A DNA stretch of 64,000 nt, from NCBI RefSeq assembly GCF_038049935.1, contig NZ_CP145886.1, forward strand, positions 1,558,501 through 1,622,500, in the 5' to 3' direction. The notes beneath the pieces were generated by a model. That model was not told where the DNA came from, did no database searches, and was given only the letters and a program-made list of their open reading frames with translations. Positions within the stretch are counted from its first letter, which is position 1. Each line of letters starts with the position of its first letter. This DNA is from Rossellomorea sp. y25. Its GTDB lineage: Bacteria > Bacillota > Bacilli > Bacillales > Bacillaceae_B. A program made the translations under genes and the position numbers. Below, in pieces: positions 20,040 through 36,146 of the stretch.

Positions 20040-20046
20040 CGATCCT

Positions 20047-20179: not shown

Positions 20180-23100
20180 GTGACAACAGAAATTCCAATC
20201 ATTGAAACCAAATTTGTGCCGCCTGTTGTCAAGGATTCATATATTAGGCGGCCAAGCTTAATGAAAAAAATGAGAACGGTTACAGATTATAAATTGGTGA
20301 TCGTTCATTCGGGGGCAGGCTACGGAAAGAGTACTGCGATCAGTCAGTTTCTTCAAGATGTAAAGCCGAACCATTGCTGGTACTCGATTACGCAAACCGA
20401 TGACGGACTGGTTCCGTTTGTCACAAATATTGTGTATAGCATCCAGAAGCAAATCCCTCATTTTGGAGAAGAGTTGAGGGAAACCATTCTGTCCATGGGG
20501 CAATATATGAAGGATGATGATATCTACAGATTAAGTGCATTGTTTATTAACGAATGCATGAAAATCCCCCACACATTCACCATTATCGTCGACGACTATC
20601 ATTTAGTGGACCATTCCTTCCTTATAAATCAATGGATGGAGAAGGTCATTGAGCACTTACCGGGTCACATTCATTTCTTTCTATCTACACGAACCAAGCC
20701 TTCATGGGCCACATTTATCCAGCTGAAAATATCCCGACAATTATTAGAGATAACAGAAAATGATTTGTGCCTCACGAAAGAAGAGGTGGAAGTACTTCTA
20801 ACGGACTTTCATGAAACGGTCATTCCCGAATCCCAGCTTGATGCGATTTGTGAATTAACCGAAGGCTGGGTCATTGCTGTCAGTATGATTCATTCGCAGC
20901 TTCAAGAGAATCCTGATATTCTCATGGTGGAAAAGCAGCATTCCTCCCTTGAAGAGCTCTTTCATTATTTGGCACATGAGGTGTTTTCTAAGCAAACACC
21001 GATCGTGCAGCAGTTCTTGAAGCAAATCTCGATTCTCGATGAAATAAATGGACGTACATGCGAAGCCATCTTTGAACTGCCGGGATCCGGGCAAATGTTA
21101 AACCAGCTGTCAGAGAAAAATGCCCTTATTCAAGAAATGAAAGGATCACATCATTATCGACTTCACGCCCTTTTCCAAACTTTTTTAGAACGGAAATTTA
21201 AAGAAGAAAGCATAGGGCTCTATAAGGAATTACAGCTGAAATGTGCTCGATTCTATGAACAGAACGGGAAGTGGGAAAAAGCGATTCATCATTATATGAA
21301 AATGGAAAACATTGAGGCGGTGTCCGCTATTCTTGTTCGTGAAGCGGATGCGATGATGAAAAGTGGACAGCTCGAAACACTTGGTGACTACTTGGGGGAG
21401 GTTCCAGACTCCTTAAAGGATCAATATTATCCTCTTTGGTTTTATCAAGGTGAGTTCTTTCGTTATCGGTCATTCTACGAAAAAGCAGAAAAAGCCTATA
21501 CCCATGGAATTCAACTGGCAGAGGAAAAGAGTGACGCGCTCATGCTGAGCAAAGCATATGAAGGAATCGGCAGAATCTATTTAGACACGATTCAGCCGGG
21601 AAAAGCACAGCGGTTTTTACTCAAAGCCATTGAATGTTTAGAGGTTGAAGATCAAGAATACCTTTTCGAAAAAAATCATTTATATGTTCTGATAGCAGAG
21701 AATTTGGTGAACTCTGGAAAGGCAATTCAGGCGAAAATCTGGTATGACAAAGGAAAGAAGAGCGGTTTCATGAAGGAAGAAGGCAACCTTGAGGCAAGGA
21801 TGCTTCTCCGAACAGGGAAGCTTCAAGAAGCAAAACAGGTTCTTCTCTACAAAGAAGGAGAAGACCGGCTTCCACAATCCCATCGGGAAAAAGAATTGCT
21901 TCTGTCGCTTATTCAATCGTTCATGGGGAATGGCAGCGAAGCCAAATCATTAGCTCAGCAGGGGATCAGTCAGGGAATCAAAGGGAAGTCTCCTTTTGTG
22001 GAAGCATGCGGTTGGATTCGCATGGGTCATGCCGTTCAGCTCATCAGTGATTACGACACAGAGCTTGCAAAAAGCTGCTATGAAACATCGTTAGAATTAA
22101 TGAGTCAGATCAATGTTTCAAGGGGAAAAGCAGAACCATATATGGGACTGTCGATTCTTTATGCCAGATCAGGAGATTTCCAGAGTGCAAAGGAATTAGC
22201 CGAAGAGGCTTTGCATGAAACGGAAAAGGTAGAAGATATGTGGCTATATTCACTCATACTTCTGAGCGTCGGGATAACGGACTTTTACAAAGAAGAATTT
22301 GAAGAGGCAAGGAAAAGCTTTGAACGGGCGAGCAGTCATTTTCAATCGTGCGGAGACCGTTACGGCAAAATGGTGACAGATTTGTGGAAAAGCGCAATTG
22401 CCTACAAAACAGGTGATCACGATAGATTCGTTGAAAATATGACCTCCTGCTTAAATGAAGTCCAAATGGGAGAATATGAGTTTATCTTTTTCAAGCCGAC
22501 TACATTCGGGCCGAAAGACCTGCAAAGCCTGATTCCATTATTAGTCAAAGCTTACCAGGAGAGCATTCATGCCTCATTTTGTCATCAGCTTTTAACCAAA
22601 TCAGGATATGATTCGATCACCTCCCATCCGGGGTACACAATCAAAGTTCAAACCCTCGGACGCTTTGAAATCCGGTTAGGCGATCATAAAGTCATAGAGA
22701 AGCAGTGGCAGAGGGAGAAGGCGAAAGAATTATTTCAATACTTCCTGATTCAACGGAACCAATTAAAACGGAAAGAAGAAATCATTGAAGAACTGTGGCC
22801 AGAGGGGACAGGTTCGGACCGTGACTTCAAGGTGGCACTCAACGCCCTGAACAATGTATTAGAACCCAATCGTCAAGCAAGGGGAAAAGCTTTCTTTATC
22901 GGTCGCCATCAGGAAGGGTATGGATTGAATCCAATGGCCAACATCGAATACGATGCAGATCAATTCACCAGCTGGATCACAGAGGGATTAAAAGAAAACG
23001 ATGTGGAGAAATCCATTCAATTCCTCGAACGGGGATTCCACTATTATAAAGGGATGTTCTTGCCGGACCGGAAAGGGGCGTGGTGGACCGAGAAGGAAAG

Positions 23101-23410
23101 GGAGCGACTTCATCTCCTATACTTGAGAGGACTGGAGAAACGGGCTCAGATCGCAGTGAGAATGGAACGGGTCGATGAAGCCATCGATTACTGCCTGACG
23201 ATTATCGAACATGATCCCCTTTGGGAGGAAGCCTACCGCATCCTCATGTACGGCTATTATCAAAAGAATAACCGTCCCCAAGCCGTTAAGTGGTTTCAGC
23301 GCTGCAAAGACATCCTCGAATCCGAACTGGGCGTCGATCCCATGACAGCGACACAGCAAATGTATGAAATGGTCATTGGTGCGAAGGTAAGAGGAAGGCT
23401 ATTTGAATAA
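20180..23410 (+). CDS. STAND-type ATPase regulator with TPR repeats and C-terminal SARP/BTAD DNA-binding module
   Basis: 1076 residues from the GTG at 20180, which follows GAGGGTGG; the upstream frame to 20111 has no RBS. Domain order: MalT-like STAND NTPase (Walker A SGAGYGKST at ~45-53, Walker B TIIVDDYH), a winged-helix/HETHS-type region, a long TPR array (~380-760), an OmpR-type winged helix (from TLGRFEIRLGD, ~820-905) and a bacterial transcriptional activation domain (BTAD, ~915-1060, ending SELGVDPMTATQQMY). STAND proteins switch on ATP and inducer binding, so it is probably an inducible activator. It lies directly upstream of a Liv-type importer and lipid-like catabolic genes on the same strand and probably controls them; see the repeats at 23837 and 33932. 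The inducer is unknown. Confidence 0.9.
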   Translation: MTTEIPIIETKFVPPVVKDSYIRRPSLMKKMRTVTDYKLVIVHSGAGYGKSTAISQFLQDVKPNHCWYSITQTDDGLVPFVTNIVYSIQKQIPHFGEELRETILSMGQYMKDDDIYRLSALFINECMKIPHTFTIIVDDYHLVDHSFLINQWMEKVIEHLPGHIHFFLSTRTKPSWATFIQLKISRQLLEITENDLCLTKEEVEVLLTDFHETVIPESQLDAICELTEGWVIAVSMIHSQLQENPDILMVEKQHSSLEELFHYLAHEVFSKQTPIVQQFLKQISILDEINGRTCEAIFELPGSGQMLNQLSEKNALIQEMKGSHHYRLHALFQTFLERKFKEESIGLYKELQLKCARFYEQNGKWEKAIHHYMKMENIEAVSAILVREADAMMKSGQLETLGDYLGEVPDSLKDQYYPLWFYQGEFFRYRSFYEKAEKAYTHGIQLAEEKSDALMLSKAYEGIGRIYLDTIQPGKAQRFLLKAIECLEVEDQEYLFEKNHLYVLIAENLVNSGKAIQAKIWYDKGKKSGFMKEEGNLEARMLLRTGKLQEAKQVLLYKEGEDRLPQSHREKELLLSLIQSFMGNGSEAKSLAQQGISQGIKGKSPFVEACGWIRMGHAVQLISDYDTELAKSCYETSLELMSQINVSRGKAEPYMGLSILYARSGDFQSAKELAEEALHETEKVEDMWLYSLILLSVGITDFYKEEFEEARKSFERASSHFQSCGDRYGKMVTDLWKSAIAYKTGDHDRFVENMTSCLNEVQMGEYEFIFFKPTTFGPKDLQSLIPLLVKAYQESIHASFCHQLLTKSGYDSITSHPGYTIKVQTLGRFEIRLGDHKVIEKQWQREKAKELFQYFLIQRNQLKRKEEIIEELWPEGTGSDRDFKVALNALNNVLEPNRQARGKAFFIGRHQEGYGLNPMANIEYDADQFTSWITEGLKENDVEKSIQFLERGFHYYKGMFLPDRKGAWWTEKERERLHLLYLRGLEKRAQIAVRMERVDEAIDYCLTIIEHDPLWEEAYRILMYGYYQKNNRPQAVKWFQRCKDILESELGVDPMTATQQMYEMVIGAKVRGRLFE

Positions 23411-23416
23411 GGAAAG

Positions 23417-23450
23417 GGTCAGATCCACTTTGGGGATCTGATCCTTTTTT
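23417..23450 (+). terminator. Rho-independent terminator after the regulator
   Basis: GGTCAGATCC-ACTTTGG-GGATCTGATCC followed by T6; a 10-bp stem. Confidence 0.9.
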
Positions 23451-23582
23451 ATTTTGAGATGGATTTACATTGCGAGATTCGGTCGAAGAAAGCCAGGAAC
23501 TCAATTGCTTTTATGAGAACTTGGGTCATGATCATATTTACCGTAGGAACATTGGTTATTATCGCAGGATATTCGATTAGAG

Positions 23583-23788
23583 TTTTGAATAATCCAGTCG
23601 TTTTATCGAATAATCCAGCGAAATATCAAGGAAACCGGCCGTTTTATCGAATAATCCGGGGGAAATAGCATGAAAGCCGGCAGTAATATCGAATAATCCA
23701 GCGGAAATAGCATGGAATCCAGCCGTTTTTCCACTTAATCCGGCCGAAAGCATCAAAAAACCGGCCGATTAACATAATTATCCAATTG
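23583..23788 (-). repeat. Degenerate tandem array, 21-bp unit, family CGGCYGGATT
   Basis: About ten units in strict 21-bp register. On the minus strand each unit begins CGGCYGGATT (or a near match) followed by 11 AT-rich bases. Unit starts on the + strand are at 23601 (20-nt unit), 23621, 23642, 23663, 23684, 23705, 23726, 23747 and 23768, with a shorter first copy at 23583. Alternate units are most alike (for example TTTTATCGAATAATCC versus AAATAGCATGAAA), suggesting a 42-bp higher-order duplication. The rest of the 23411-23918 gap holds a terminator, no supported gene, and the promoter at 23837. Confidence 0.85.
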
Positions 23789-23836
23789 CAATCCTTATTT
23801 GCACGCAACCCATTCAAAAACATCGCCCCACTCCCA

Positions 23837-23869
23837 TGTAACTCATTTGTAACTCACCTCACCTAAGAT
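23837..23869 (+). promoter_or_regulatory. Activator-type promoter with 11-bp spaced TGTAACT repeats (solute-binding protein operon)
   Basis: TGTAACT at 23837-23843 and 23848-23854 (11 bp apart), then 9 nt, then -10 TAAGAT at 23864-23869. There is no -35 hexamer, since the repeats occupy that place. The same arrangement occurs at 33932. Heptamer direct repeats at 11-bp spacing just upstream of -10 are typical of SARP binding sites. Confidence 0.65.
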
Positions 23870-23918
23870 GAATTCAAAGCTATTATCGCTTTAGTTCATA
23901 TTCCGAGGGGGAGAAAAT

Positions 23919-25142
23919 GTGAAACGATCGTTTAGATGGACGACTTTAATGATGTTGATGTCATGCATGCTTATTGCTGCGAGTGCCTGCAGCTCAGAAA
24001 GCAGTGGCGGGTCGGGGGATACAGATGAGAAAGAACAGGAAACGGTGAAGATCGGGGTGCTTGCTTCCCTTACAGGGGCACTGGAGTCATATGGGAAGCA
24101 AACGCAGCGCGGATTTGAATTAGGCCTCGAGTATGCCACGGATGGAACGATGGAAGTGGCGGGGAAGAAAATAGAAGTTGTGTTTGAAGATACAGAAACG
24201 AAGCCAGAGGTTGCTGTTCAAAAAGCGACGAAGCTTTTAGAAGAAGATGGAGTGGATTTCCTGGTTGGATCATCAAGCTCAGGTGACACACTGGCCGTGC
24301 TGCCACTTGCAGAAGAATACGAAAAGATCATGATTGTCGAGCCGGCGGTTGCCGATAGTATTACAGGTTCAGAGTTTAATCCTTATATCTTCCGTACAGC
24401 CCGTAACTCTTCACAGGATGCTGTTGCAGGGGCTGCTGCGATTGCGAAGGATGGAGTGAAGATCGCTACACTGGCACCGGATTATTCATTTGGCCGCGAC
24501 GGGGTGGCAGCCTTTAAAGAAGCGGCTGAAGGTCTTGGAGCTGAAATTGTACTTGAAGAATATGCAGATCCGGCCGCTACAGATTTTACATCGAATATCC
24601 AAAAGGTCATTGATAGTAAACCGGATTATCTATTTGTCATCTGGGCAGGTGCGAACTCTCCATGGAATCAAATCGGGGATATGAAGCTCCAGGAAAAAGG
24701 GATCAAAATTTCTACAGGGGCACCAGATATTGCTGCTCTATCAGCTATGGAACCACTTGTGGGGATGGAAGGGTTCAGTGTCTATTACCATGAACTGCCG
24801 GACAATGACATTAACGACTGGTTAGTGGAAGAACACAAGAAGAAATATGACGGGGACGTTCCGGATCTCTTTACCCCAGGTGGGATGAGCTCGGCGATTT
24901 CCATTGTGGAGGCGATCAAGAAAACAGAAGGGGATTTAGATCCTGATACCCTCATTGAAACGATGGAGGGAATGAGCTTCGAAACACCGAAGGGAACGAT
25001 GACCTTCCGGGAAGAAGATCATCAGGCATTACAAACGCTATATGCCATCAAGCTCGAGAAGAAAGAGGGAGTTCCATATCCTGTTCCGGTATTGATCAGA
25101 GAGCTTTCGCCGGAAGAAACGGCTCCTCCGATCCGTAACTAA
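23919..25142 (+). CDS. Liv-type ABC transporter substrate-binding lipoprotein
   Basis: 407 residues. Lipoprotein signal peptide with lipobox ending AASAC (Cys at ~24), then a type I periplasmic-binding fold (VKIGVLASLTGALESYGKQTQRGFELGLEYA ...) of the Leu/Ile/Val-binding family. GTG start 7 nt after GAGGGGG. It is the first gene of an operon with two ATPases, two permeases and four metabolic enzymes. Binding proteins of this family also take aromatic acids, amides, urea and other small organic compounds, so a branched-chain amino acid substrate should not be assumed; the neighbouring acyl-CoA-type enzymes point to a carboxylic acid or ester. Confidence 0.9.
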   Translation: MKRSFRWTTLMMLMSCMLIAASACSSESSGGSGDTDEKEQETVKIGVLASLTGALESYGKQTQRGFELGLEYATDGTMEVAGKKIEVVFEDTETKPEVAVQKATKLLEEDGVDFLVGSSSSGDTLAVLPLAEEYEKIMIVEPAVADSITGSEFNPYIFRTARNSSQDAVAGAAAIAKDGVKIATLAPDYSFGRDGVAAFKEAAEGLGAEIVLEEYADPAATDFTSNIQKVIDSKPDYLFVIWAGANSPWNQIGDMKLQEKGIKISTGAPDIAALSAMEPLVGMEGFSVYYHELPDNDINDWLVEEHKKKYDGDVPDLFTPGGMSSAISIVEAIKKTEGDLDPDTLIETMEGMSFETPKGTMTFREEDHQALQTLYAIKLEKKEGVPYPVPVLIRELSPEETAPPIRN

Positions 25143-25162
25143 AATCGAACTTAAAGGAATGA

Positions 25163-25217
25163 AAAGGGGGGTGACTGACTGGGTGTTTTGGCACTTTGTT
25201 ATCAGTCAGCCCCTTTC
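25163..25217 (+). other. Intercistronic hairpin between binding protein and LivG genes
   Basis: GGGG..TGACTGA (25165-25178) pairs with TCAGTCAGCCCC (25202-25213), with a 23-nt loop. No strong T run follows. Such a hairpin after a binding-protein gene commonly protects its mRNA or lowers expression of downstream transporter genes. Confidence 0.6.
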
Positions 25218-25243
25218 ATGAAATCTAAGCGGGGTGAAGAAGC

Positions 25244-26008
25244 TTGAGTATTTTAGAAACAAAGAATCTAACGATTAAGTTCGGAGGTCATATTGCCGTC
25301 GATGATGTAACGTTCTCGGTACCTGAAAGGAAATTCAAGTCGATCATCGGACCGAATGGTGCCGGGAAAACGACGCTGTTTAATCTTCTGAGCGGTCAGT
25401 TAAAGCCAACTGGCGGAGATGTGTTTTTGAAAGGACAAAAGATTACGAGACTCTCTCCTACAAAAAGGGCCAGGCTTGGAATCGGTCGCTCCTTTCAAAT
25501 GACGAATGTGTTCCCGAATCTGACGGTTTTAGAGAATGTGAGATTGGCCGTGCAGTCAAAGCTTGGAATCCGCTATGTGATGCACAGGAATATCAAAGCG
25601 TTCAGTGATGTCATGAGTGAAGCCTATGACTTATTGAAGCTCGTCATGCTCTCGAATAAAGCGGACTCTCTTGCCGTAAACCTTGCACACGGAGAAAAAA
25701 GAAAGCTAGAGATCGCCATGCTCCTTGCACTGGATACGGAAATTTTGCTATTGGATGAACCTACTGCAGGAATGTCCCTGGAAGAAGTACCGGCGATCCT
25801 GGAAGTGATCCGTACCATCAAATCTCAAGGGGATAAAACCATTGTCCTCATTGAACACAAAATGGATATGATCATGGATCTGTCTGACAGCATCATGGTG
25901 TTATTCAATGGTCGAATGCTTGCTGATGATCATCCAAAGGAAATCATGAAGAATGAACAAGTGCAATCGGCTTATTTAGGGGGACTTTACGATGAGCACA
26001 CTGCTTAA
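25244..26008 (+). CDS. Liv-type ABC transporter ATP-binding protein (LivG-like)
   Basis: 254 residues. Walker A GPNGAGKTT (~36-44), signature LAHGEKRKLEIAM, Walker B LLLDEPTAG and the H-loop in VLIEHKMDM. The LivG-type long insertion with RLGIGRSFQMTNVFPNLTVLENVRLA is present. The TTG start has GGGGTGA about 6 nt upstream. It overlaps the next ATPase gene by 17 bp. It energises import together with LivF-, LivH- and LivM-like products. Confidence 0.93.
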   Translation: MSILETKNLTIKFGGHIAVDDVTFSVPERKFKSIIGPNGAGKTTLFNLLSGQLKPTGGDVFLKGQKITRLSPTKRARLGIGRSFQMTNVFPNLTVLENVRLAVQSKLGIRYVMHRNIKAFSDVMSEAYDLLKLVMLSNKADSLAVNLAHGEKRKLEIAMLLALDTEILLLDEPTAGMSLEEVPAILEVIRTIKSQGDKTIVLIEHKMDMIMDLSDSIMVLFNGRMLADDHPKEIMKNEQVQSAYLGGLYDEHTA

Positions 26009-26699
26009 AGTAGAAAACATCGAAACATATATCGGTCAGTATCACATTTTGCAAGGAGTTTCCTTTGAGGTGAAAAAAGGCGAAGTAACCGTACTGCTAG
26101 GAAGAAACGGGGCTGGGAAAACGACCAGTCTCCGGAGCATCATGGGACTGACCCCGCCCTCGTCAGGAAAAGTCATCTATAAAGAGGAGGAGATTCACAC
26201 GCTTCCCACCTTTAAAGTAGCCAATAAAGGAATCGGATATGTCCCGGAGGATCAGGGGATATTTGGAGACCTGACAGTGGAAGAGAATATGAAGGTAGCC
26301 ATGAAAACGCAAGATCAAGAGACCGGGGATCGAATGAATTGGATCATTGATCTGTTTCCCGATTTGAAAAAATTCTGGAAAAAGGCCGGCGGGAATTTAA
26401 GCGGAGGGCAGAAGCAGATGCTTTCCATTGCAAGGGCGTACTTAAATAATAATGACCTTATCTTAATCGATGAACCGAGTAAGGGGCTCGCTCCGATTGT
26501 CGTCGAGAAAGTGATGCATTCCATTGAAGAAATGAAAGAAAGAACGACGATCCTTCTTGTTGAGCAAAACTTTATGATGGCCAGTCAAATCGGGGATCGT
26601 TTCTATATTATCGACGATGGAACCACCGTTCACGATGGGCAAATGCAATCGTTGGTCAAAGATGAAGAATTGAAGAAGAAATACTTAGGAATTGCGTGA
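25992..26699 (+). CDS. Liv-type ABC transporter ATP-binding protein (LivF-like)
   Basis: 235 residues. Walker A GRNGAGKTT (~37-45), canonical signature NLSGGQKQML, Walker B LILIDEPSKGL, H-loop LLVEQNFMM. Second ATPase of the heterodimeric Liv-type importer. The ATG lies inside the livG-like gene (17-bp overlap), and the permease gene follows 12 bp after its stop. Confidence 0.93.
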   Translation: MSTLLKVENIETYIGQYHILQGVSFEVKKGEVTVLLGRNGAGKTTSLRSIMGLTPPSSGKVIYKEEEIHTLPTFKVANKGIGYVPEDQGIFGDLTVEENMKVAMKTQDQETGDRMNWIIDLFPDLKKFWKKAGGNLSGGQKQMLSIARAYLNNNDLILIDEPSKGLAPIVVEKVMHSIEEMKERTTILLVEQNFMMASQIGDRFYIIDDGTTVHDGQMQSLVKDEELKKKYLGIA

Positions 26700-26711
26700 G
26701 GAGGGAAGAGG

Positions 26712-27572
26712 ATGGACCTCATCATTAACTTGGCACTTAATGGATTGGCCACAGGGATGCTGATCTTTCTGCTGGCAGCAGGTTTGACGCTCATATTTGG
26801 ATTAATGGATGTATTGAACTTTGCTCACGGAGGCTTATTTGCATGGGGAGCATACAGCGGCGTCTGGGTTTATACCGTAACAGACAGCTTTATGGTAGGC
26901 ATTATCGGAGCGATTGCAACCGGATTGGTGCTGGGACTCGTGACAGAAAAATTCATTATACAGCCGGTTTACGGAAATCATGTTCAACAGATTCTCATTA
27001 CGTTAGGGTTCATGCTCGTTCTTTCAGAGATGTTGAAAGTCGTGTGGGGACCGAACCAGCTATCCGCGAAAGCGCCTGACTATTTAGCGGGGAGCTGGGA
27101 AATCGGGGATATCATTGTCATTAAATATCGTGTCTTCATTATCCTTGTTGGATTATTGATTTTCACGATTATCCAGCTGATTTTGAATAAAACAAGAATC
27201 GGCTTGATCGTCCGGGCAGGGGTCATGAATAAAGAAATGGTGGAAGCCTTTGGTATCAATATTAAGAAAATGTTTATGTACGTCTTTATGGTTGGTTCTT
27301 CCCTGGCTGCCCTCGGAGGAATTCTTCTTGCCCCGTACTCAGGTGTCATTTATGCAGAGATGGGCATGGAATTTGCGATCCTCGCTTTCATCGTTGTGGT
27401 GATCGGGGGAATGGGAAGTTTTCCGGGTTCGTTGTTTGCGGCTATCTTAGTCGGTCTGTCAGGCTCGTTCATGACGTATTATGTGCCCGAATTATCCCTG
27501 GCAGTCAATATGATATTAATGGCGCTTGTACTGATTTTCAGGCCACAGGGACTATTTACAGTAAAGGGGTGA
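26712..27572 (+). CDS. Liv-type ABC transporter permease (LivH-like)
   Basis: 286 residues, about eight TM helices. The family pattern GLTLIFGLMDVLNFAHGGLFAWGAY near the N-terminus and AVVIGGMGSFPGSLFAAILVG-type segment (here FIVVVIGGMGSFPGSLFAA) near the C-terminus are clear. GAGGAGGGAAGAGG precedes the ATG. It pairs with the LivM-like protein encoded 4 bp downstream. Confidence 0.93.
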   Translation: MDLIINLALNGLATGMLIFLLAAGLTLIFGLMDVLNFAHGGLFAWGAYSGVWVYTVTDSFMVGIIGAIATGLVLGLVTEKFIIQPVYGNHVQQILITLGFMLVLSEMLKVVWGPNQLSAKAPDYLAGSWEIGDIIVIKYRVFIILVGLLIFTIIQLILNKTRIGLIVRAGVMNKEMVEAFGINIKKMFMYVFMVGSSLAALGGILLAPYSGVIYAEMGMEFAILAFIVVVIGGMGSFPGSLFAAILVGLSGSFMTYYVPELSLAVNMILMALVLIFRPQGLFTVKG

Positions 27573-27576
27573 CAGA

Positions 27577-28572
27577 ATGAAGATTCTCAAGCAGCGATCG
27601 AACGCATTTTTAGGAATAGCATTAGGGATCCTGATCATCTATCCGTTTTTCAATGATTCAAGAAGCATGATGATCCTCCTGACCCAGGTCTTCATCTTCG
27701 GCGTATTTGCCATGAGCTACGATCTCCTTCTCGGATATACAGGGATCGTTTCCTTTGGGCATGCCATGTTCTTTGGTATCGGAGCCTATTCTACAGGCAT
27801 TTTTCTCGACCGAATGGAGCCTACCATGTTTTGGCTCATGGTCTCCATCCTGGTCGCTTCCGTCATAGCAGGATTGGTCAGCTATATCGTCGGACTCTTG
27901 ACGTTACGACTTAAAAGTCATTTCTATGCGATGTTGACCCTTGCCTTTGCAGGATTATTCCTCGTCGGGGCTGAAAAATGGAGAAGCTTGACGTTTGGGA
28001 ATGATGGGTTTACGTTTCGAACACCGGATTTAATGAAAGATCGTCTGGTATTTTACTTCATATGCCTAGGTGTCATGGCCGTCATCTTTCTTTTATTAAG
28101 AAGATTTACCCATTCTCCTGCCGGGTCCGTACTTCAGGCCATTCGTGAAAACGAGCAGAGGGCAGAATCACTTGGGTTCCAGGTCCTTCATTACAAAATT
28201 TTAGCCAGTGTGATTGCCGGAGTGATTGCGAGTTTCGCAGGTTCATTGTACGGCTTGTCTCTACGGTTCGTGAACACGAGTGTATTCACGATGGATGTCA
28301 CCCTTGATGCGTTATTGATGACCATCATTGGCGGAGTGGGCACCCTGGTGGGACCGATCGTCGGAGCAGGACTGATTGAATTTGCCCATCACTGGTTGAC
28401 CGAGCTCGCCAAAACCTATCCGATCTTTGAACGCTGGATCATTTTCTTCGGAATTCTTTATATCCTGGCGGTTATGTTCTTCCCGGCGGGTATTGTGGGG
28501 TCATTCAAGAAAATCAAGAAAAGAAAACGAGGGAAACGAGAGCACAGGGAAGAGAAAAACATCGCAAGCTAA
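27577..28572 (+). CDS. Liv-type ABC transporter permease (LivM-like)
   Basis: 331 residues. LivM hallmark YDLLLGYTGIVSFGHAMFFGIGAY, conserved EAA-like region QAIRENEQRAESLGF, and TIIGGVGTLVGPIVGAGLIEF. It ends in a very basic tail (KKIKKRKRGKREHREEK). It completes a five-component importer. The KAS III-like gene follows 15 bp downstream, so transport and metabolism share a transcript. Confidence 0.93.
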   Translation: MKILKQRSNAFLGIALGILIIYPFFNDSRSMMILLTQVFIFGVFAMSYDLLLGYTGIVSFGHAMFFGIGAYSTGIFLDRMEPTMFWLMVSILVASVIAGLVSYIVGLLTLRLKSHFYAMLTLAFAGLFLVGAEKWRSLTFGNDGFTFRTPDLMKDRLVFYFICLGVMAVIFLLLRRFTHSPAGSVLQAIRENEQRAESLGFQVLHYKILASVIAGVIASFAGSLYGLSLRFVNTSVFTMDVTLDALLMTIIGGVGTLVGPIVGAGLIEFAHHWLTELAKTYPIFERWIIFFGILYILAVMFFPAGIVGSFKKIKKRKRGKREHREEKNIAS

Positions 28573-28587
28573 AAGGGAGGATCTTTC

Positions 28588-29592
28588 ATGACGATCGGCA
28601 TTCTTAGCACAGGATTATATTTACCCTCAACTACTATGACAAGCGGGGAAATTGCTGAAAAAGCAGGACTTCCATTAGAGGTTGTAGAAAACAAAATGGG
28701 AATCAAAAAGAAAACGGTTCCAGGACCGGAAGATCATACATGTGCCATGGGCATTCAAGCGGCAAGGCGGGCCATCGAAAAAGCAGGTATCGATCCCAAG
28801 GATATTGATGTAGTCATCTACATTGGTGAAGAACATAAAGAATATCCCCTTTGGACAGCGGGAATCAAGCTCCAGGAAGAAATCGGTGCTTATCGGGCCT
28901 GGGCTTTTGACGTGGCGTTACGGTGCGGTACCACGATCATGGCGATGAAGCTTGCCAAAAGCTTACTGGAAACGGATCCCTCCGTTAAAACCGTGCTCCT
29001 TGCAGGAGGGTACCGCAACAACGATTTTATCGATTACCGAAACAGCAGGACCCGCTTTATGTTCAACCTGGCAGCAGGCGGCGGAGCGATGATCCTTCAA
29101 AAAGGTCTTAAGAAAAATGCCGTATTGGAAACGTCCATCATCACCGATGGCTCGTTTTCAGAAGATGTCATTGTCCCGGTGGGTGGAACGAAGGAGCCTC
29201 TGACAGGAGAGTCTATCGGACGATATAAGCTGGATGTCACCGATCCGGAAGGAATGAAGAAAAGGCTCGAGCAGAAATCCATGGATCACTTCTTAAAGGT
29301 TGTACGTGAATCGGTATATAAAAGCGGATACTCAGAAAAGGACATTTCATACGTAGCCATGCTTCATATGAAAAAGTCCGCCCATCGCTATGTATTAAAG
29401 GAATTGGGACTCACTGAAAAGCAGTCTATCTATCTGGAAGAATACGGACATATCGGCCAATTCGATCAAATTTTGTCACTGGAACTGGCAGAAGAAAGAG
29501 GCAAGCTGAATGAGGGCGATGTTGTCGTGCTGGTCAGTGCGGGGATTGGGTACGCCTGGGGAGCGACGACCATGATTTGGGGGAATTCATAA
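28588..29592 (+). CDS. 3-oxoacyl-ACP synthase III-like (KAS III/thiolase-fold) enzyme
   Basis: 334 residues, thiolase fold. Candidate catalytic Cys113 in DVALRCGTTIMAM and His260 in AMLHMKKSAH. The Asn of the FabH Cys-His-Asn triad, expected in a Y-G-N context, is replaced by His288 (EEYGHIGQFDQ). FabH's HQAN motif is also absent. This argues against housekeeping fatty acid initiation and for a specialised acyl-CoA condensation, acyl transfer or C-C cleavage. AGGGAGG precedes the ATG. It is in an operon with a Liv-type importer, a hydrolase, an SDR and a thiolase. Product unknown. Confidence 0.82.
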   Translation: MTIGILSTGLYLPSTTMTSGEIAEKAGLPLEVVENKMGIKKKTVPGPEDHTCAMGIQAARRAIEKAGIDPKDIDVVIYIGEEHKEYPLWTAGIKLQEEIGAYRAWAFDVALRCGTTIMAMKLAKSLLETDPSVKTVLLAGGYRNNDFIDYRNSRTRFMFNLAAGGGAMILQKGLKKNAVLETSIITDGSFSEDVIVPVGGTKEPLTGESIGRYKLDVTDPEGMKKRLEQKSMDHFLKVVRESVYKSGYSEKDISYVAMLHMKKSAHRYVLKELGLTEKQSIYLEEYGHIGQFDQILSLELAEERGKLNEGDVVVLVSAGIGYAWGATTMIWGNS

Positions 29593-29608
29593 AAAGGGGG
29601 ATAACGAA

Positions 29609-30520
29609 ATGGCAGCGGTTCAACTAAAGAAAGTATTGCTTGGGAATGGAGAAACGTTAGCTTATCGGGAAAGAAACGGGGGACATATTCCACTGGTGCT
29701 TATCCACGGGAATATGACCTCATCCAAACATTGGGATGTTGTTTTGGATAAAATGGATGAAAGTTATAAAATTTACGCCGTTGATATGAGAGGATTTGGT
29801 GAATCAAGCTATCATCGGGAAATTACGAGTATAAAAGATTTGTCCGACGATATTAAGGATTGGGTTGACGAATTGGGCCTCCGTGACTTTTCAATGGTAG
29901 GATGGTCGACTGGTGGTGCAGTCGCCATGCAATTTGCCATCGATTATCCAGACTATTGCAAGAACCTTATTTTACTAGCTTCAGCTTCCACAAGAGGTTA
30001 CCCATTCTTCGGCACTAAATCAGACGGCACACCTGATATGGGAAATCGCCTTCGTAGGATAGAAGAAATAATGATGGACAGCGGCAAAACCGTCCCGGTC
30101 CAAGCAGCATACGACGGGAACAACCGGGAATTTCTCCGCACCCTGTGGAATTCACTGATCTATTCGCACAACCAGCCCGATGATGAACGCTACGAAGCGT
30201 ACATTGATGATATGAGAACACAGCGGAACTTGGCTCATATTTATCAAGCCTTAAACACGTTTAATGTTAGCAGTGCTTACAATGGTCTCGTTGATGGAAC
30301 GAACCAGGCGAGCTCCATCTCGATTCCGGTACTTGTATTAAGAGGAGACCGTGATTATGTGATCACAAAAGAAATGGCAGAGGAAACCATCGAAGATATA
30401 GGAGAAAACGCTACATTTGTTGAATTAAAGAATAGTGGGCATTCACCGCTCATCGATGATGTAGATCAATTGCTTCGCGCAATGACATCATTTTTGCAGA
30501 TGAAGGAGGAACCGGCATGA
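29609..30520 (+). CDS. Alpha/beta hydrolase (PhaZ-like or ester/thioester hydrolase)
   Basis: 303 residues. Oxyanion motif LIHGNMTSSKHW, nucleophile Ser100 in GWSTGG, acid residue in GDRDYV (~247-249) and His278 in NSGHSPLID. No signal peptide, so it acts inside the cell on imported or CoA-bound substrate. The size and the GWSxGG box resemble intracellular poly(3-hydroxybutyrate) depolymerases described in Bacillus, and the next two genes are PhaB- and PhaA-like, but generic esterase or C-C hydrolase activity is equally possible. The SDR start overlaps its stop by 4 bp. Confidence 0.82.
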   Translation: MAAVQLKKVLLGNGETLAYRERNGGHIPLVLIHGNMTSSKHWDVVLDKMDESYKIYAVDMRGFGESSYHREITSIKDLSDDIKDWVDELGLRDFSMVGWSTGGAVAMQFAIDYPDYCKNLILLASASTRGYPFFGTKSDGTPDMGNRLRRIEEIMMDSGKTVPVQAAYDGNNREFLRTLWNSLIYSHNQPDDERYEAYIDDMRTQRNLAHIYQALNTFNVSSAYNGLVDGTNQASSISIPVLVLRGDRDYVITKEMAEETIEDIGENATFVELKNSGHSPLIDDVDQLLRAMTSFLQMKEEPA

Positions 30521-31260
30521 GACTGGAAGGTAAAGTCGCCCTGATTACGGGTGCTGCGAACGGAATAGGATATGCCGCAGCGAAAATTTTTGTGGAAGAA
30601 GGATGCCACGTTGCACTTGTCGACTTCAATCAGGAGGTCGGCGAAGAAAAAGCACGACAGCTGAATGAACTGGGAACGGGGAAAGCATGCTTTTTTCAAG
30701 GGGATGTAGCAGATCGATCTTCCGTTGATTCTTTTGTAAAAGAGGTAAGAGAACGATTTGGTAAAATCGATATTTTAATAAACAATGCTGGAATTACAAG
30801 AGATGGTATGATTCATAAGTTATCACCGGAAGACTTTCAAAAGGTGCTGGATGTGAATTTGACAGGTGTGTTCAATTGTACCCAAGCGGTTCTCCCCCAT
30901 TTGATCGATAATGGAAAAGGGAAAATCATCAACACGTCTTCTGTAAGTGGGGTTTACGGAAATGTCGGACAAACCAACTATGCGGCAACAAAAGCTGCCG
31001 TGGTCGGAATGACGAAAACATGGGCGAAGGAATTGGGGCGTAAAGGTATCAACGTGAACGCAGTCGCGCCCGGATTCACCGAAACGAGTATGGTGGCAGC
31101 CGTTCCGGAAAAAGTCATCGATCAAATGAAGGCGATGATACCGCTTGGCAGACTAGGGAAACCGGATGATATCGCAAAAGCTTACTTGTATTTGGCATCT
31201 GATGATAGTGACTATGTAAATGGAACAGTCCTGCATGTAGATGGCGGCATCATGATGTAA
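30517..31260 (+). CDS. SDR family 3-oxoacyl/acetoacetyl-CoA reductase-type dehydrogenase
   Basis: 247 residues, classical short-chain dehydrogenase. Cofactor motif TGAANGIG, NNAG, and catalytic Ser142-Tyr155-Lys159. The Asp36 after the second strand (VALVDFNQ) suggests NAD rather than NADP. Similar in length and motifs to FabG/PhaB. ATGA overlap with the hydrolase gene shows translational coupling. Its likely job is oxidation of a 3-hydroxyacyl-CoA or a related alcohol to the ketone that the next enzyme cleaves. Confidence 0.88.
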   Translation: MRLEGKVALITGAANGIGYAAAKIFVEEGCHVALVDFNQEVGEEKARQLNELGTGKACFFQGDVADRSSVDSFVKEVRERFGKIDILINNAGITRDGMIHKLSPEDFQKVLDVNLTGVFNCTQAVLPHLIDNGKGKIINTSSVSGVYGNVGQTNYAATKAAVVGMTKTWAKELGRKGINVNAVAPGFTETSMVAAVPEKVIDQMKAMIPLGRLGKPDDIAKAYLYLASDDSDYVNGTVLHVDGGIMM

Positions 31261-31284
31261 CTGATAGGAAAGGGAAGTGACAAA

Positions 31285-32463
31285 ATGAGAAATGTAGTGA
31301 TTACATCGGCCCTGCGTACGCCGGTTGGTGCATTTGGTGGAGCATTTAAAGATCTGCTACCGACGGATCTGATTGTACCTGTTATGAAAGAAGCGGCGAG
31401 AGAAAGCGGGCTCTCGGCAAGTGATATTGATGAAGTGATCCTCGGGCATTGTATTCAGAGGACCGACCAGCCTAACACGGCAAGAACGGCAGCGCTACTT
31501 GCCGGGTTTGACGACACGACGACAGGCTTTACGATTCAACGACAATGTGCCAGCGGGATGCAGGCAATCATTTCAGCAGCCATGCAAATTCAAACAGGCT
31601 TATCTGATATTGTCCTGGCAGGTGGAGTAGAAGCGATGAGCTCCAGTCCATATATTCTAAAGCAGCACCGCTTCGGTCAAAGGCTGCAACACGGTGAAAT
31701 TCGGGATTCCGTTTGGGAGGTGCTTGAAGATCCGATCCACGGCATCATGATGGGAGAAACAGCCGAGAACCTAGCAGAAATTCACTCGATCTCCCGGGAA
31801 GAGCAGGACGAATATGCGGTGTTAAGCCATGAGCGTGCAGCCGCCGCGATGGAGAATGGATATTTCGATTCACAGATCCTTCCACTTACAGTAAAGGAAC
31901 GTAAGAGTGAAAAGGTGATTGATAAAGATGAAAGTCCCCGAGCCGGGCTGAAAGTAGAAAAGCTGCAGAAATTAAAGCCTGCATTCCGTGAAGGCGGCAC
32001 GGTGACTGCCGGGAATTCTTCAAGTCTCAATGATGGAGGGGCGGCACTGATCCTCATGAGTGAAGAAGAAGCCGAGCGAAGAGGACTTCAGCCCCTAGGA
32101 AGAATCGTTGGCTACTCAGTAGCAGGCGTGGATCCGAAAGTGATGGGGATCGGTCCTGTACCAGCCATTCAAAAAGGACTACATACAGCGAAAAATTGGT
32201 CTCTGGATGAGATCGATCTATTCGAGATTAACGAAGCATTCGCAGCACAGTATTTAGCTGTCGAAAAAGAGCTTGGTCTCGACCGGGAAAAGGTAAATGT
32301 GAACGGAAGTGGAATCAGTATCGGTCATCCAGTTGGCTGCACAGGTGCACGACTCGTTGTGTCTTTACTGCATGAATTGAAGCGTCGTGAATTGAAAAAG
32401 GGAATTGCTTCATTATGTGTCGGCGGCGGAATGGGCGCTTCGGTGTTGGTTGAAGGGATGTAA
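31285..32463 (+). CDS. Acetyl-CoA acetyltransferase (thiolase)
   Basis: 392 residues. Nucleophile Cys88 in QRQCASGMQAI, His348 in GHPVGCTGARLV and Cys378 in LCVGGGMGAS, the complete thiolase set. It cleaves 3-ketoacyl-CoA to acetyl-CoA plus a shortened acyl-CoA, or condenses two acetyl-CoA. It is the last gene of the operon that starts with the binding protein; a wobble-rich terminator follows. Thus the operon ends in acetyl-CoA, consistent with carbon-source catabolism. Confidence 0.92.
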   Translation: MRNVVITSALRTPVGAFGGAFKDLLPTDLIVPVMKEAARESGLSASDIDEVILGHCIQRTDQPNTARTAALLAGFDDTTTGFTIQRQCASGMQAIISAAMQIQTGLSDIVLAGGVEAMSSSPYILKQHRFGQRLQHGEIRDSVWEVLEDPIHGIMMGETAENLAEIHSISREEQDEYAVLSHERAAAAMENGYFDSQILPLTVKERKSEKVIDKDESPRAGLKVEKLQKLKPAFREGGTVTAGNSSSLNDGGAALILMSEEEAERRGLQPLGRIVGYSVAGVDPKVMGIGPVPAIQKGLHTAKNWSLDEIDLFEINEAFAAQYLAVEKELGLDREKVNVNGSGISIGHPVGCTGARLVVSLLHELKRRELKKGIASLCVGGGMGASVLVEGM

Positions 32464-32472
32464 GAAGAGGAA

Positions 32473-32508
32473 GTGCTGGCTCTGGATGGGGCTAGTGCTT
32501 TTTTTGTG
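32473..32508 (+). terminator. Terminator at the end of the catabolic operon
   Basis: GTGCTGGCTC-TGGATG-GGGCTAGTGC, a 10-bp stem with several G-T pairs, followed by T7. Confidence 0.65.
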
Positions 32509-32632
32509 GGATTTTTAGTGTGGGAAGGAGACCCTCACCAATTACGGAAAGAACGTCTCCCCCCGTTAAGACCAATCACAACCCTATGATAATAGACTCA
32601 TTTTCACGCATTTACACAAAATTTACCCTATT

Positions 32633-32663
32633 TTGACAATATGTAATGTACGCTAAATATATA
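32633..32663 (+). promoter_or_regulatory. Candidate promoter of the nuclease gene
   Basis: TTGACA at 32633 with an AT-rich TATATA region at 32658-32663. The spacer is longer than ideal (19 nt), so the -10 position is uncertain. Confidence 0.35.
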
Positions 32664-32689
32664 GTCATTTTTAGAGGAGGCGAAGCAAT

Positions 32690-33871
32690 TTGAAGGTTGT
32701 AAACAAAAAGATCATCAGCATTTTTTCTGTTTTAATTATTTTTATGATTGCGTGTGGTCAAGTATCTCCGAGTCAAATGAGTGCAGCGGGAAACGGGACG
32801 TGGAGTTCGCCATTTACTGTTGATCAGGCATTGTCCAATCAAGATGGTTCCACTCAGTCGGTGGAAGGATATGTGGTCGGGCAGCCGACCTCTACGTCAT
32901 CCGTTGTCACGAGCAATTTTCCAAATGATTATGCTTTAGCTTTGGCAGATTCCCCTTCAGAATCCAACACGGATGATATGGTATATGTTCAAATTCCATC
33001 TTCCTACCGCTCAAACTATGGACTGCAAAGTAACCCAGGCCTGATCGGCGAAAAAATCAAAGTGACTGGAAGTTTAACGGCATATTTCTCTCATCCGGGA
33101 GTGAAGTCTACGTCAGCATTTGAATCAGTGGAAGATGGAGGCACTGATCCGACTGATCCTCCAACTGAACCAACCGACCCGCCAGCCTATGAAGAATACT
33201 ATAATACCGCTGAAGGAAAGACGGGGTCTTCTTTAAAAACAGCACTACATAACATCATTGATGATCATCAAACTCTTTCTTACAGTGATGTATGGGGAGC
33301 ATTGCGTAACACAGATGAAGATCCGAACAATCCCAATAATGTGATACTCCTGTACTCAGGACGCTCCCAATCGAAAACGACAAACGGCGGTGGAGTCGAC
33401 GACTGGAACCGTGAGCACGTGTGGGCGAAATCCCACGGTGACTTCGGAACAGCGCAAGGACCGGGGACGGACCTTCATCACTTAAGACCAACAGATGTAA
33501 CGGTCAATTCCACAAGAAGTAATCTTGATTTTGACAATGGTGGAACTCAGCATAGCGAAGCGCCAGGCAACTATTATGATGGCGATTCCTGGGAGCCTCG
33601 TGATGAAGTGAAAGGTGACGTCGCCCGTATGATCTTCTACATGGCCGTCCGCTATGAAGGGGACAGTGGAGAACTCGATTTAGAAATCAATAACAACGTC
33701 AACAATGGAAGTGCCCCGTACCACGGGAAAATGTCAGTTCTCCTTCAATGGAATGAACAAGACCCTGTCGATGCGAGGGAAATCAGACGCAACAATATTA
33801 TTTTTGAACAATATCAAGGAAATCGAAATCCATTCATTGACCACCCCGAGTGGGCGGAAATGATCTGGTAA
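32690..33871 (+). CDS. Exported endonuclease I family nuclease with N-terminal OB-like domain
   Basis: 393 residues. Signal sequence with a possible lipobox (FMIACG, Cys at ~22), then an OB-fold-like domain of the DUF6359 kind (WSSPFTVDQALSNQDG ... KIKVTGSLTAYF, ~32-145), a Pro/Thr/Asp linker (DPTDPPTEPTDPPAY) and an EndA/NucM-type endonuclease I domain with the beta-beta-alpha-metal motif WNREHVWAKSHG and DLHHLRPTD. TTG start after GAGGAGG. Related to secreted Bacillus nucleases (YurI/BsnI). It degrades extracellular DNA. It sits between the catabolic operon and the acyl-CoA synthetase but has its own promoter and terminator. Confidence 0.9.
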   Translation: MKVVNKKIISIFSVLIIFMIACGQVSPSQMSAAGNGTWSSPFTVDQALSNQDGSTQSVEGYVVGQPTSTSSVVTSNFPNDYALALADSPSESNTDDMVYVQIPSSYRSNYGLQSNPGLIGEKIKVTGSLTAYFSHPGVKSTSAFESVEDGGTDPTDPPTEPTDPPAYEEYYNTAEGKTGSSLKTALHNIIDDHQTLSYSDVWGALRNTDEDPNNPNNVILLYSGRSQSKTTNGGGVDDWNREHVWAKSHGDFGTAQGPGTDLHHLRPTDVTVNSTRSNLDFDNGGTQHSEAPGNYYDGDSWEPRDEVKGDVARMIFYMAVRYEGDSGELDLEINNNVNNGSAPYHGKMSVLLQWNEQDPVDAREIRRNNIIFEQYQGNRNPFIDHPEWAEMIW

Positions 33872-33879
33872 GCAGCACG

Positions 33880-33907
33880 GGGCCTGGACTCTTCCAGGCC
33901 CTTTTTT
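33880..33907 (+). terminator. Rho-independent terminator after nuclease
   Basis: GGGCCTGGA-CTCT-TCCAGGCCC followed by T6. Confidence 0.95.
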
Positions 33908-33931
33908 AATGTGGAAGCTAGGTTCCTTTTC

Positions 33932-33964
33932 TGTAACTCATTTGTAACCCCCGACATCTATCAT
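33932..33964 (+). promoter_or_regulatory. Activator-type promoter with 11-bp spaced TGTAACY repeats (acyl-CoA synthetase)
   Basis: TGTAACT (33932-33938) and TGTAACC (33943-33949), 11 bp apart with the same CATT between, then 9 nt, then -10 TATCAT (33959-33964). No -35 hexamer. Geometry is identical to the promoter at 23837-23869. Confidence 0.65.
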
Positions 33965-33994
33965 GAAAGCAACCATCCAAAGGAGGAGATGAAT

Positions 33995-35482
33995 ATGGAA
34001 AGTGTAACAGATTGGTTGCAGAAGCGATCAATGATCTCTCCTGATCACGTTGCTTTAATCAATGCTCCTACCAATGAAACGATTGATTACCGCACCTTAG
34101 ATGAACGGGCGTCTAAGTGGGCTCAATATATGCATGATACAGGAATATCGAAAGGGGACCGTGTGGTATTCATATCCACTAATCATACAGTCTGCTTCGA
34201 GCTCTTATTTGCCTGTGGAAAAATAGGGGCTGTATTTGTACCTCTTAATTGGCGATTATCCGCTGCTGAGATTGGGTCGATCATAGCCAATTGTACACCC
34301 GGCCTGATTTTATATAAAAAAGACTTTCAATCTCTTGTTTCAGACCTTGAAAACGTAGCAGAACAACACTGTATGGATAAAATCGCAACCTTTGTTTACT
34401 CCCAAAAACAGGGTATACCTCAATCTGCTACTCTGTCAGCCTCGGATCCTTGGGTGATGATTTATACAGGTGGAACGACGGGATGTCCCAAGGGAGTGGT
34501 TCTTTCTCATCGATCGGTAACTGCTAATGCCCTGAACACAGTGGTGAGCTGGAACTTGACAGAGGGAGACTGCACGCTGACGTATTTACCTACCTTTCAC
34601 ACGGGAGGGTTAAATGCTCTGTCAATCCCTCTTTTGATGGTGGGAGGGAAGGTCGTGATTGCTGAAAGGTTTGACCCCGACCAAGTGATACATGTCCTGA
34701 ACGAATACGGATGCAGCATTGTTCTACTTGTCCCGACAATGTATCACTTGCTTATGGAAAATGAGGATTTTAAACATACTCCATTTCCAAAAATGAAGGT
34801 GTTTCTTTCAGGAGGAGCCCCTTGCCCCGGAAAGGTATATGAGTTCTTTAAGGAAAAGAAGATACCGTTTAAAGAAGGATATGGTTTAACCGAAGCGGGA
34901 CCTAATAATTTTTATATTGATCCTTCCCGGATGAAAAAGGGTTCTGTGGGTAAAGCGATGATGTTGAATCGGGTAAAGGTGATTGATGAAGCCGGAAATC
35001 CTGTCGGTCAGGGAGAGGTGGGGGAGCTGCTGTTAGGAGGAGACCATTTATTTAAGGAGTACTGGAAGAATCCTAAGCAGACGAAAGAGGTTCTCAAAGA
35101 CGGGTGGTTACATACAGGTGACCTGGCGAAATATGATGTGGATGAAGATTATTATATTGTTGGTCGAAAAAAAGACATGATCATTTCCGGGGGGGAAAAT
35201 ATTTATCCTCAAGAGATCGAGCATTGGTTATGTGAGCATCCAGCCATACTTGAGTGTGCGGTCATTGGACTCCCTCATGAAAAGTGGGGAGAGGTGGTCA
35301 CGGCCTATATCAGGATTCGAAAAGGCGAGTCCATGACAGCAGAGGATGTGAGAACGTATTGCTTGCAGAAGTTTGGGAAGTTTAAGATTCCTAAGAACTA
35401 TCATTTCATCGAAGAACTTCCTAAAACCGATGTGGGAAAAGTAAACAAAAAGGCACTCACGAAACTTTTTCAAGGGCAATAA
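33995..35482 (+). CDS. AMP-dependent acyl-CoA synthetase
   Basis: 495 residues. P-loop YTGGTTGCPKGVVLSH (Gly replaces the usual Ser in YTSGTTG), GYGLTEAGP, HTGDLAKYD, the hinge region GRKKDMIISGGENIYPQEIE and C-terminal Lys in KTDVGKVNKKAL. The ATG at 33995 is chosen because AGGAGG lies 8 nt before it; the ATG at 33989 is too close. It shares the TGTAACY promoter with the Liv-type operon, so it probably activates the imported or hydrolysed acid to its CoA thioester. Chain length is unknown. Confidence 0.92.
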   Translation: MESVTDWLQKRSMISPDHVALINAPTNETIDYRTLDERASKWAQYMHDTGISKGDRVVFISTNHTVCFELLFACGKIGAVFVPLNWRLSAAEIGSIIANCTPGLILYKKDFQSLVSDLENVAEQHCMDKIATFVYSQKQGIPQSATLSASDPWVMIYTGGTTGCPKGVVLSHRSVTANALNTVVSWNLTEGDCTLTYLPTFHTGGLNALSIPLLMVGGKVVIAERFDPDQVIHVLNEYGCSIVLLVPTMYHLLMENEDFKHTPFPKMKVFLSGGAPCPGKVYEFFKEKKIPFKEGYGLTEAGPNNFYIDPSRMKKGSVGKAMMLNRVKVIDEAGNPVGQGEVGELLLGGDHLFKEYWKNPKQTKEVLKDGWLHTGDLAKYDVDEDYYIVGRKKDMIISGGENIYPQEIEHWLCEHPAILECAVIGLPHEKWGEVVTAYIRIRKGESMTAEDVRTYCLQKFGKFKIPKNYHFIEELPKTDVGKVNKKALTKLFQGQ

Positions 35483-35532
35483 AGGAATCGGAGAGGTACG
35501 CCCCGAAATACATACGTCGAGGTGAAAAAGAC

Positions 35533-36069
35533 ATGAAACGGTTATTGACGGGTACAAGAATTTATCTTTCCGGATTTCAGGAAGAAGATGTTACGGCCAT
35601 AAGGGAATGGAATCAAAATGAAGAAGTTCAGAGATTACTGGATGCTCTCCCCCATAAGCCTAAAACAGACGAAGAGATTAAAAAATGGATGGGGGATCCG
35701 GGAGACACCGCCTTTCGTTTTGCGGTCCGGCTGAAGGATGACGGAAGGATCATCGGATTTGTTGAGTTGGACGGAATTCTCTGGACCCATCGTGTGGGCT
35801 GGATTTCAATATCCATCGGTGACGAGCAGTCATGGGGGAATGGATTCGGCAGGGAAGCCATGCAGTGTCTCTTGGCGTATGCCTTTCATGAGTTGAATTT
35901 ACACCGTCTTCAGTTAACGGTATTTTCGTATAATGAGAGAGCGATCCGTTTATATGAATCACTTGGATTCACAAAAGAAGGAAGTTTCCGTCAGTTCCTG
36001 CAAAGAGACGGGAATCGTTATGACATGATCCTGTATGGGTTATTAGTAGATGAGTGGAAAGAAGGATGA
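35533..36069 (+). CDS. GNAT family N-acetyltransferase (RimJ/RimL-like)
   Basis: 178 residues. The acetyl-CoA binding segment QSWGNGFGREAMQCLLAYAFHELNLHR and the C-terminal NERAIRLYESLGFTKEG motif are typical of RimJ/RimL-type GNATs that acetylate N-termini or small amines. GAGGTG precedes the ATG. It is about 50 bp after the acyl-CoA synthetase with no terminator between, so read-through is likely. Substrate unknown. Confidence 0.9.
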   Translation: MKRLLTGTRIYLSGFQEEDVTAIREWNQNEEVQRLLDALPHKPKTDEEIKKWMGDPGDTAFRFAVRLKDDGRIIGFVELDGILWTHRVGWISISIGDEQSWGNGFGREAMQCLLAYAFHELNLHRLQLTVFSYNERAIRLYESLGFTKEGSFRQFLQRDGNRYDMILYGLLVDEWKEG

Positions 36070-36088: not shown

Positions 36089-36146
36089 GTGTGTGGGTGG
36101 GGTGGTGGGATCGAGCGCTCAGTCAACTTCCTTTATTTGTTAAATA

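Follow-up and report, generated by a model that had tools for sequence, protein, structure and literature searches.

SARP activators are described, in the parts of the literature available to us, as antibiotic regulators of actinomycetes. The accessible text of one source gives the rule for their promoters: the repeats lie 11 bp apart, the 3′ repeat is 8 bp from the -10 element, and the upstream repeat lies over the -35 position (PMC10936776). The SARP dimer offers sigma region 4 a place to dock (PMC10936776). For SARP-LAL proteins such as PimR, the available part of another report gives heptamers with 4-nt spacers and at least two bound monomers (PMC5930380). Here we analyze a stretch of 64,000 nucleotides from Rossellomorea sp. 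y25 (NZ_CP145886.1, positions 1,558,501 to 1,622,500 of the forward strand; the window, whose numbering is used below), in which a large regulator with a SARP module is followed by two promoters with paired heptamers. These elements quite probably belong to a regulon for the use of polyhydroxyalkanoates (PHA), that is, polyhydroxybutyrate (PHB) and 3-hydroxyacid oligomers, under its own STAND-TPR-SARP activator. It is very likely that regulator, site, and targets are correctly linked, and likely that the substrate is a polyester or its oligomers.

The first site, TGTAACTCATTTGTAACT at 23837-23854 (plus strand), has the form TGTAACT-CATT-TGTAACT and is followed after 9 nt by the -10 hexamer TAAGAT at 23864-23869. 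It lies ahead of a Liv-type operon. The second, TGTAACTCATTTGTAACC at 33932-33949 (plus strand), reads TGTAACT-CATT-TGTAACC and stands 9 nt before TATCAT at 33959-33964, ahead of an acyl-CoA synthetase gene. A reading made from the letters alone (the sequence-only reading) had reported both repeats, their 11-bp period, the 9 nt to each hexamer, and the lack of a -35 element, and each of these was recovered where it had been placed. When 37 orthologous promoters of the operon were searched for TTGACA at a spacing of 15-19, no more than 1-3 of the six bases matched. Since the period is 11 bp, the spacing is near 8, and a -35 is missing, the promoter matches the SARP rule as worded in the accessible text of PMC10936776.

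No other exact TGTAACY-N4-TGTAACY occurs in the window. When up to 2 mismatches are allowed there are 3 window matches against a shuffle mean of 0.83, and at least 3 arose in 8 of 100 shuffles; the loose motif by itself is not significant within a single window. The whole 4.63-Mb genome holds 4 occurrences of TGTAAC-N5-TGTAAC (none of the reversed control), and at 3 of these a TA...T hexamer follows at exactly N9. The third such site, TGTAACTTATTTGTAACT-N9-TACACT, lies ~560 kb away, outside the window available to the sequence-only reading, and 40 nt 5′ of the start codon of a secreted PHB depolymerase gene. The product is a 591-aa secreted-type short-chain-length PHA (PHB) depolymerase (NF050058, 326.2 bits, cut-off 150) with a signal-peptide-like N-terminus by inspection, and its nearest PDB sequence bears the name PHB depolymerase family esterase. 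The two-target regulon suggested earlier is supported and needs extending to secreted PHB depolymerases, whose presence in it points to polyester (PHA) use.

The regulator gene (20180-23410, plus strand, GTG start at 20180) encodes 1076 residues, with a MalT-like STAND NTPase, a TPR part, and a C-terminal winged helix plus BTAD. Both the open reading frame (ORF) and the module, as previously read from the letters, were confirmed. The BTAD domain matches PF03704 with 82.5 bits (cut-off 22.1) and is preceded by an OmpR-type winged helix. The SARP module spans residues 819-1070 of 1076 and is thus C-terminal, not N-terminal as in AfsR and SARP-LAL. The STAND NTPase with a TPR sensor is the arrangement of the MalT family, although the NCBIfam MalT model scores 205.5 bits, below its cut-off of 537. 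A Pfam search of the regulator for a LuxR-type C-terminal helix-turn-helix gave no match; the BTAD module is there instead. In this respect, and in site and promoter type, the protein differs from MalT, the STAND activator of the maltose regulon. The differences from AfsR and other Streptomyces SARPs lie in the end of the protein that bears the module, the host order (Bacillales), the predicted regulon (catabolic here, antibiotic synthesis there), the repeat, here TGTAACY, and the distance to the -10 (9 nt here, 8 there). Like PimR, the regulator combines a SARP module and large ATP-binding parts in one protein, but the domain order is reversed; PimR has the consensus CGGCAAG and belongs to antibiotic clusters.

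We followed site and regulator through 397 genomes of the order. Carriers were those with the regulator over most of its length: 107 genomes matched, 8 with the MalT-like N-terminus alone and 1 with a fragment were removed, and split genes or genes with inner stops were kept, leaving 98. The exact site with its -10 is present in 90 of the 98 carriers, as against 17 of the 299 other genomes (Fisher p 2.5e-61), and the reversed control pattern in 1 of the 397. Because relatives are not independent, the comparison was stratified by genus. Within the 21 genera holding both kinds, the pattern occurs in 56/62 carriers and 2/73 non-carriers (Cochran-Mantel-Haenszel p ~2e-18), in a test that, like the Fisher test, leaves part of the shared ancestry in, which counts against our proposal. 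Of 95 genomes that have both the regulator and the substrate-binding lipoprotein (PBP) of the Liv-type importer, 87 show the exact pattern; of 9 that have the PBP but no regulator, none does.

For the promoter itself, 37 carrier promoters were picked by gene, not by motif, as those nearest to the query with loci at hand. Left out were G008, whose contig begins with other sequence so that the downstream repeat alone is visible, G017, whose promoter is off the contig, and three non-carriers. TGTAAC appears twice at period 11 in all 37, as the sequence-only reading would have it for genomes with an orthologue of the regulator. At heptamer position 7, the first copy has T or C and the second has T. 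N9 and then T-A-x-x-x-T are invariant while the flanks vary, so that heptamer direct repeats 11 bp apart stand 9 nt, close to the ~8 bp of SARP promoters, ahead of the -10 in 37/37. When 6-mer direct repeats were counted without guidance, the maximum, 37/37, fell at period 11; no other period gave more than 9, and 20 shuffles gave no more than 8.

Carriers without the exact pattern and non-carriers with it were read individually. In 7 of the 8 pattern-less carriers (G232 was left out), repeats with 0-1 mismatch precede the PBP operon, and none of these 7 loci lacks them; 4 of the 7 combine a perfect repeat with a variant -10, CATAAT or TATAAA. Among the 17 regulator-free genomes with repeats, 13 were checked, and G035 alone has its site at a regulon gene. 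In 11 of the other 12, no homologue of 15 query proteins lies within 1.5 kb of the site; the remaining one, G397, has weak ABC-ATPase matches. These 12 sites were therefore rejected as hidden regulon members on the lack of regulon neighbors. Five regulator-free genomes of one genus (G268, G196, G221, G309, and G367) conserve an equal or near-equal TGTAACAAAAATGTAACAATTACGTAATATT[CA]T. At the one of these five loci that was examined, in G268 (L228), no regulon gene match was found beside the site. A link of the G302 and G398 sites to a response regulator was dropped, as the sites lie antisense inside that gene.

The genus of the window repeats this distribution. Of its 36 genomes, 18 have a full-length regulator match, at 62-100% identity in 13 and at 44% in 5. 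TGTAACN5TGTAACN10TANNNT is found in 17/18 carriers against 1/18 non-carriers, and the reversed pattern in 0/36. The sole carrier without it, G017, is 84% complete, with the operon promoter off the contig and a depolymerase site with one mismatch. The site precedes the operon in 16/16 readable carriers (G008 and G017 were not readable), the synthetase in 13/13, and the secreted depolymerase in 6/6, including G035, which has no regulator. The regulator-free G011-G013 have a PBP at 70-71% and the site in 0/3. In G022 (L171 6619-10888), small pieces of the regulator remain, the front of the operon is lost and the rear kept, and the spacer of the relic site is 8 rather than 9, with no synthetase left behind it. 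In G029 (L172 6541-8425), nuclease and GNAT neighbors remain together with small regulator pieces. The term island, used in the sequence-only reading, is only partly apt: it names a block that occurs patchily, in 18 of the 36 genomes, and that G022 and G029 have largely lost.

Secreted depolymerases allow site and enzyme to be separated. At a threshold of E <= 1e-60, they occur in 19 of the 98 carriers and 20 of the 299 others. Promoters were read at a single locus in each of 30 of the 39 matching genomes; the carriers G087 and G232 are among the 9 for which there was no locus. A site with at most 1 mismatch is present in 16/17 carriers and 1/13 non-carriers read, although in G177, G122, and G084, which account for three of the five sites with one mismatch, the distance to the matched start is 185-218 nt. 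The same contrast holds at equal divergence from the query (52-58% identity). The site therefore goes with the regulator and not with the enzyme.

All target genes in the window are on the plus strand. The operon starts with the PBP gene (23919-25142, Peripla_BP_6) and continues with LivG-, LivF-, LivH-, and LivM-like ATPases and permeases (25244-28572, family matches). An intracellular short-chain-length PHA depolymerase (29609-30520; NF050089, 446.6 bits, cut-off 300) precedes a FabG/acetoacetyl-CoA-reductase-like short-chain dehydrogenase/reductase (SDR; 30517-31260), by family a proposed 3-hydroxyacyl(-CoA) dehydrogenase. An acetyl-CoA acyltransferase (BktB-like thiolase, 31285-32463) follows, in a position not conserved among relatives. 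A KAS III-like enzyme of the thiolase superfamily (PRK06840, 28588-29592) is also located within this catabolic operon. The separate AMP-binding acyl-CoA synthetase (33995-35482, family matches) is a proposed 3-hydroxyacid activator.

Operon content was compared in 10 carrier loci, with 16-18 kb read in each. All 10 have PBP and Liv genes, with the regulator gene within ~1.4 kb of the PBP gene. The intracellular depolymerase (>50% identity) is present in 8, the KAS III-like enzyme in 7, the synthetase in 7, and the SDR (>60%) in 6; the thiolase is behind the SDR in 1 and ahead of the regulator in 2 more. A minimal version in G404 (L226) consists of regulator, site, the intracellular PHA depolymerase first in line, and the SDR, and a search of the whole G404 genome for the PBP gave no match. 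In G292 (L155 4485, minus strand), an exact site precedes genes for a 418-aa protein that looks secreted and is weakly similar to lipase A (E 2e-4) and for an alpha/beta hydrolase that matches the intracellular depolymerase at 41%; these genes are a possible further regulon member.

The architecture and conservation of the site, the gene content, and the co-inheritance can be read directly from the genomes. We propose that the MalT-like STAND/TPR part senses a polyester-breakdown intermediate together with ATP and self-associates. As fold, co-occurrence, and synteny suggest, the C-terminal winged-helix/BTAD modules would bind side by side on TGTAACY-N4-TGTAACY, covering the -35 position 9 nt from the TANNNT -10. 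By analogy with AfsR, they would then recruit RNA polymerase to these -35-less promoters. The predicted targets are the operon for PBP, LivGFHM, KAS III, intracellular PHA depolymerase, SDR, and thiolase; the acyl-CoA synthetase; and the secreted PHB depolymerase in the minority of carriers possessing one. Together with the gene behind the third site, the set would make up a full route: PHB would be cut outside, and its oligomers imported, cut inside, activated, oxidized, and thiolysed, probably in that order. We know of no Liv-type transporter with a role in polyester-oligomer import.

Further observations weigh against this proposal. The Pfam model for the winged helix-turn-helix scores 18.0 bits on the regulator, under its cut-off of 26.2. 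The nine regulator-free PBPs may be paralogues, since G295 also holds a second, 70% copy. Site positions were listed for 70 of the 87 carriers with both PBP and pattern, leaving aside G008 (listed sites but no readable full repeat), and among the sites listed for G394 the only one is at the synthetase. In G404 a secreted depolymerase lacks the site. In G035 the depolymerase is preceded by a perfect site, yet the genome gave no regulator match, which may reflect loss, gene transfer, or another binder. Such a genome is what one would see if a third, unlinked regulator, co-inherited with the operon, bound the sites and the STAND-SARP protein acted elsewhere. We consider this very unlikely: the regulator gene is close to the PBP gene in all 10 loci read at length, its product has a SARP module of a kind that binds such repeats in related proteins, and in G022, where small regulator pieces are left, the relic site has lost a base of its spacer and its target gene is gone. 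The weak significance of the loose motif in the window alone would suit chance or shared ancestry, with the near-identity (17/18) between the two window sites reflecting a recent duplication or an unselected remnant. Heptamers and TA...T are, however, invariant in 37 promoters despite varying flanks, three unrelated genes carry the site, and the reversed control is nearly absent. On these grounds and on the within-genus tracking, chance was rejected and its probability is next to negligible.

The repeats also resemble boxes of WalR (YycF), the universal cell-wall response regulator, whose DNA-binding domain is of the OmpR type. Its consensus, TGTWAH-N5-TGTWAH in the accessible part of PMC9210968, covers TGTAAC-N5-TGTAAC with the same 11-bp period, which again counts against us. 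The fourth genomic occurrence, TGTAACATGAATGTAACA (L006 5826-5842, minus strand), lacks TA...T at N9 and lies upstream of an M23-type peptidase gene adjoining walRK; it is a plausible candidate WalR box. WalRK, however, is described for all Firmicutes in that part of the source (PMC9210968), from which we take its presence in the 397 genomes, whereas our site tracks the STAND-SARP gene within genera (56/62 against 2/73) and is not independent of it. Position 7 is Y and the N9-TANNNT spacing fixed in 37/37 promoters, and the targets are PHA and acyl-CoA genes rather than cell-wall genes. WalR was rejected as the cause of site conservation on the within-genus tracking; control of these targets by WalR is very unlikely, and cross-binding is possible.

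Other points concern the substrate, whose assignment is drawn from family names. No secreted-depolymerase match was found in 79 of the 98 carriers at the threshold above. G087 (L162) and G107 (L164) have the regulator and a perfect site (-10 CATAAT) ahead of the Liv importer; within 16.5-17.5 kb they have no KAS III, SDR, or synthetase, and their matches to the intracellular depolymerase are just 22-27%. Because of these 79 carriers and the 2 of 10 loci without PHA genes, the shared core may lie in taking up 3-hydroxyacids or their oligomers rather than in attacking the polymer. The same facts, the weakly lipase-like protein and hydrolase of G292, and the broad substrates (in part general knowledge) of Liv-type importers, thiolases, and synthetases would agree with a regulator that binds these sites but governs a regulon for some other compound (a different short-chain hydroxyacid or its ester, a branched acid, or an aromatic acid), in which PHA depolymerases would be late or promiscuous additions. 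We regard this as unlikely, though a serious alternative. Two distinct PHA depolymerase families score above curated cut-offs in the regulon, the intracellular one is in 8/10 loci read at length and first in line in G404, and the nearest PDB neighbor of the secreted one is named as a PHB depolymerase family esterase. A search of this genome with the PHA synthase model TIGR01836 gave no PhaC-type match, though this is a class III model and a synthase may have been missed; matches in other genomes of the genus were also below cut-off. The result fits the predicted use of a foreign polymer; on it, and with the same caveat, a role in storing endogenous PHB was rejected for this genome.

Two genes near the sites had been set aside as targets in the sequence-only reading, and our data agree. 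The EndoI nuclease gene adjoins a site in 9 genomes, always with the site past its 3′ end, and none of the 30 site loci examined has a site in front of it; control of the nuclease was rejected. Among 38 readable regulator upstreams, an exact site occurs in 1 and is oriented toward a divergent operon; autoregulation through the paired repeat was likewise rejected.

The regions around the operon promoter hold further features. Directly after the -10, a leader stem-loop AAAGC-N7-GCTTT (23870-23897, plus strand) recurs in many relatives, though not in all, with loops that differ; the mRNA would have it at its 5′ end. Between regulator and operon, four to five imperfect repeats of 26-42 nt occur at 41-42-nt spacing (23579-23783). 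A repeat finder found no such repeats in the same gap of L007, a locus from a relative. There the gap is ~2 kb and contains a 513-aa ORF (13282-14823, minus strand), absent from the window and by inspection a putative HD-domain membrane protein. An Rfam search of window positions 19500-36500 gave no match.

In a search of the published literature that left most subscription journals outside, we did not find this regulon described, nor SARP/BTAD regulators linked with PHB use in Bacillus. SARP regulation is known in kind; what appears to be new is SARP-type activation by a protein with permuted domains, in Bacillales and for a catabolic regulon. Whether a Bacillales-wide polyester switch exists, in which the STAND-SARP protein would sense 3-hydroxyacyl oligomers (or a CoA ester) and coordinate a Liv-type oligomer importer, intracellular cleavage, and secreted depolymerases where present, we judge evenly balanced. 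SARP promoter logic in 90 of 98 regulator carriers of a Bacillus-type order would be tied to biodegradable-polyester genes, among them a predicted importer for polyester oligomers. The compact -35-less promoter could serve as a PHB- or 3-hydroxybutyrate-responsive element. The proposal gives a testable answer to what switches on the extracellular PHB depolymerase in members possessing one. If true, it would explain how these Bacillales control extracellular PHB breakdown and would provide a SARP regulon for catabolism outside the actinomycetes.

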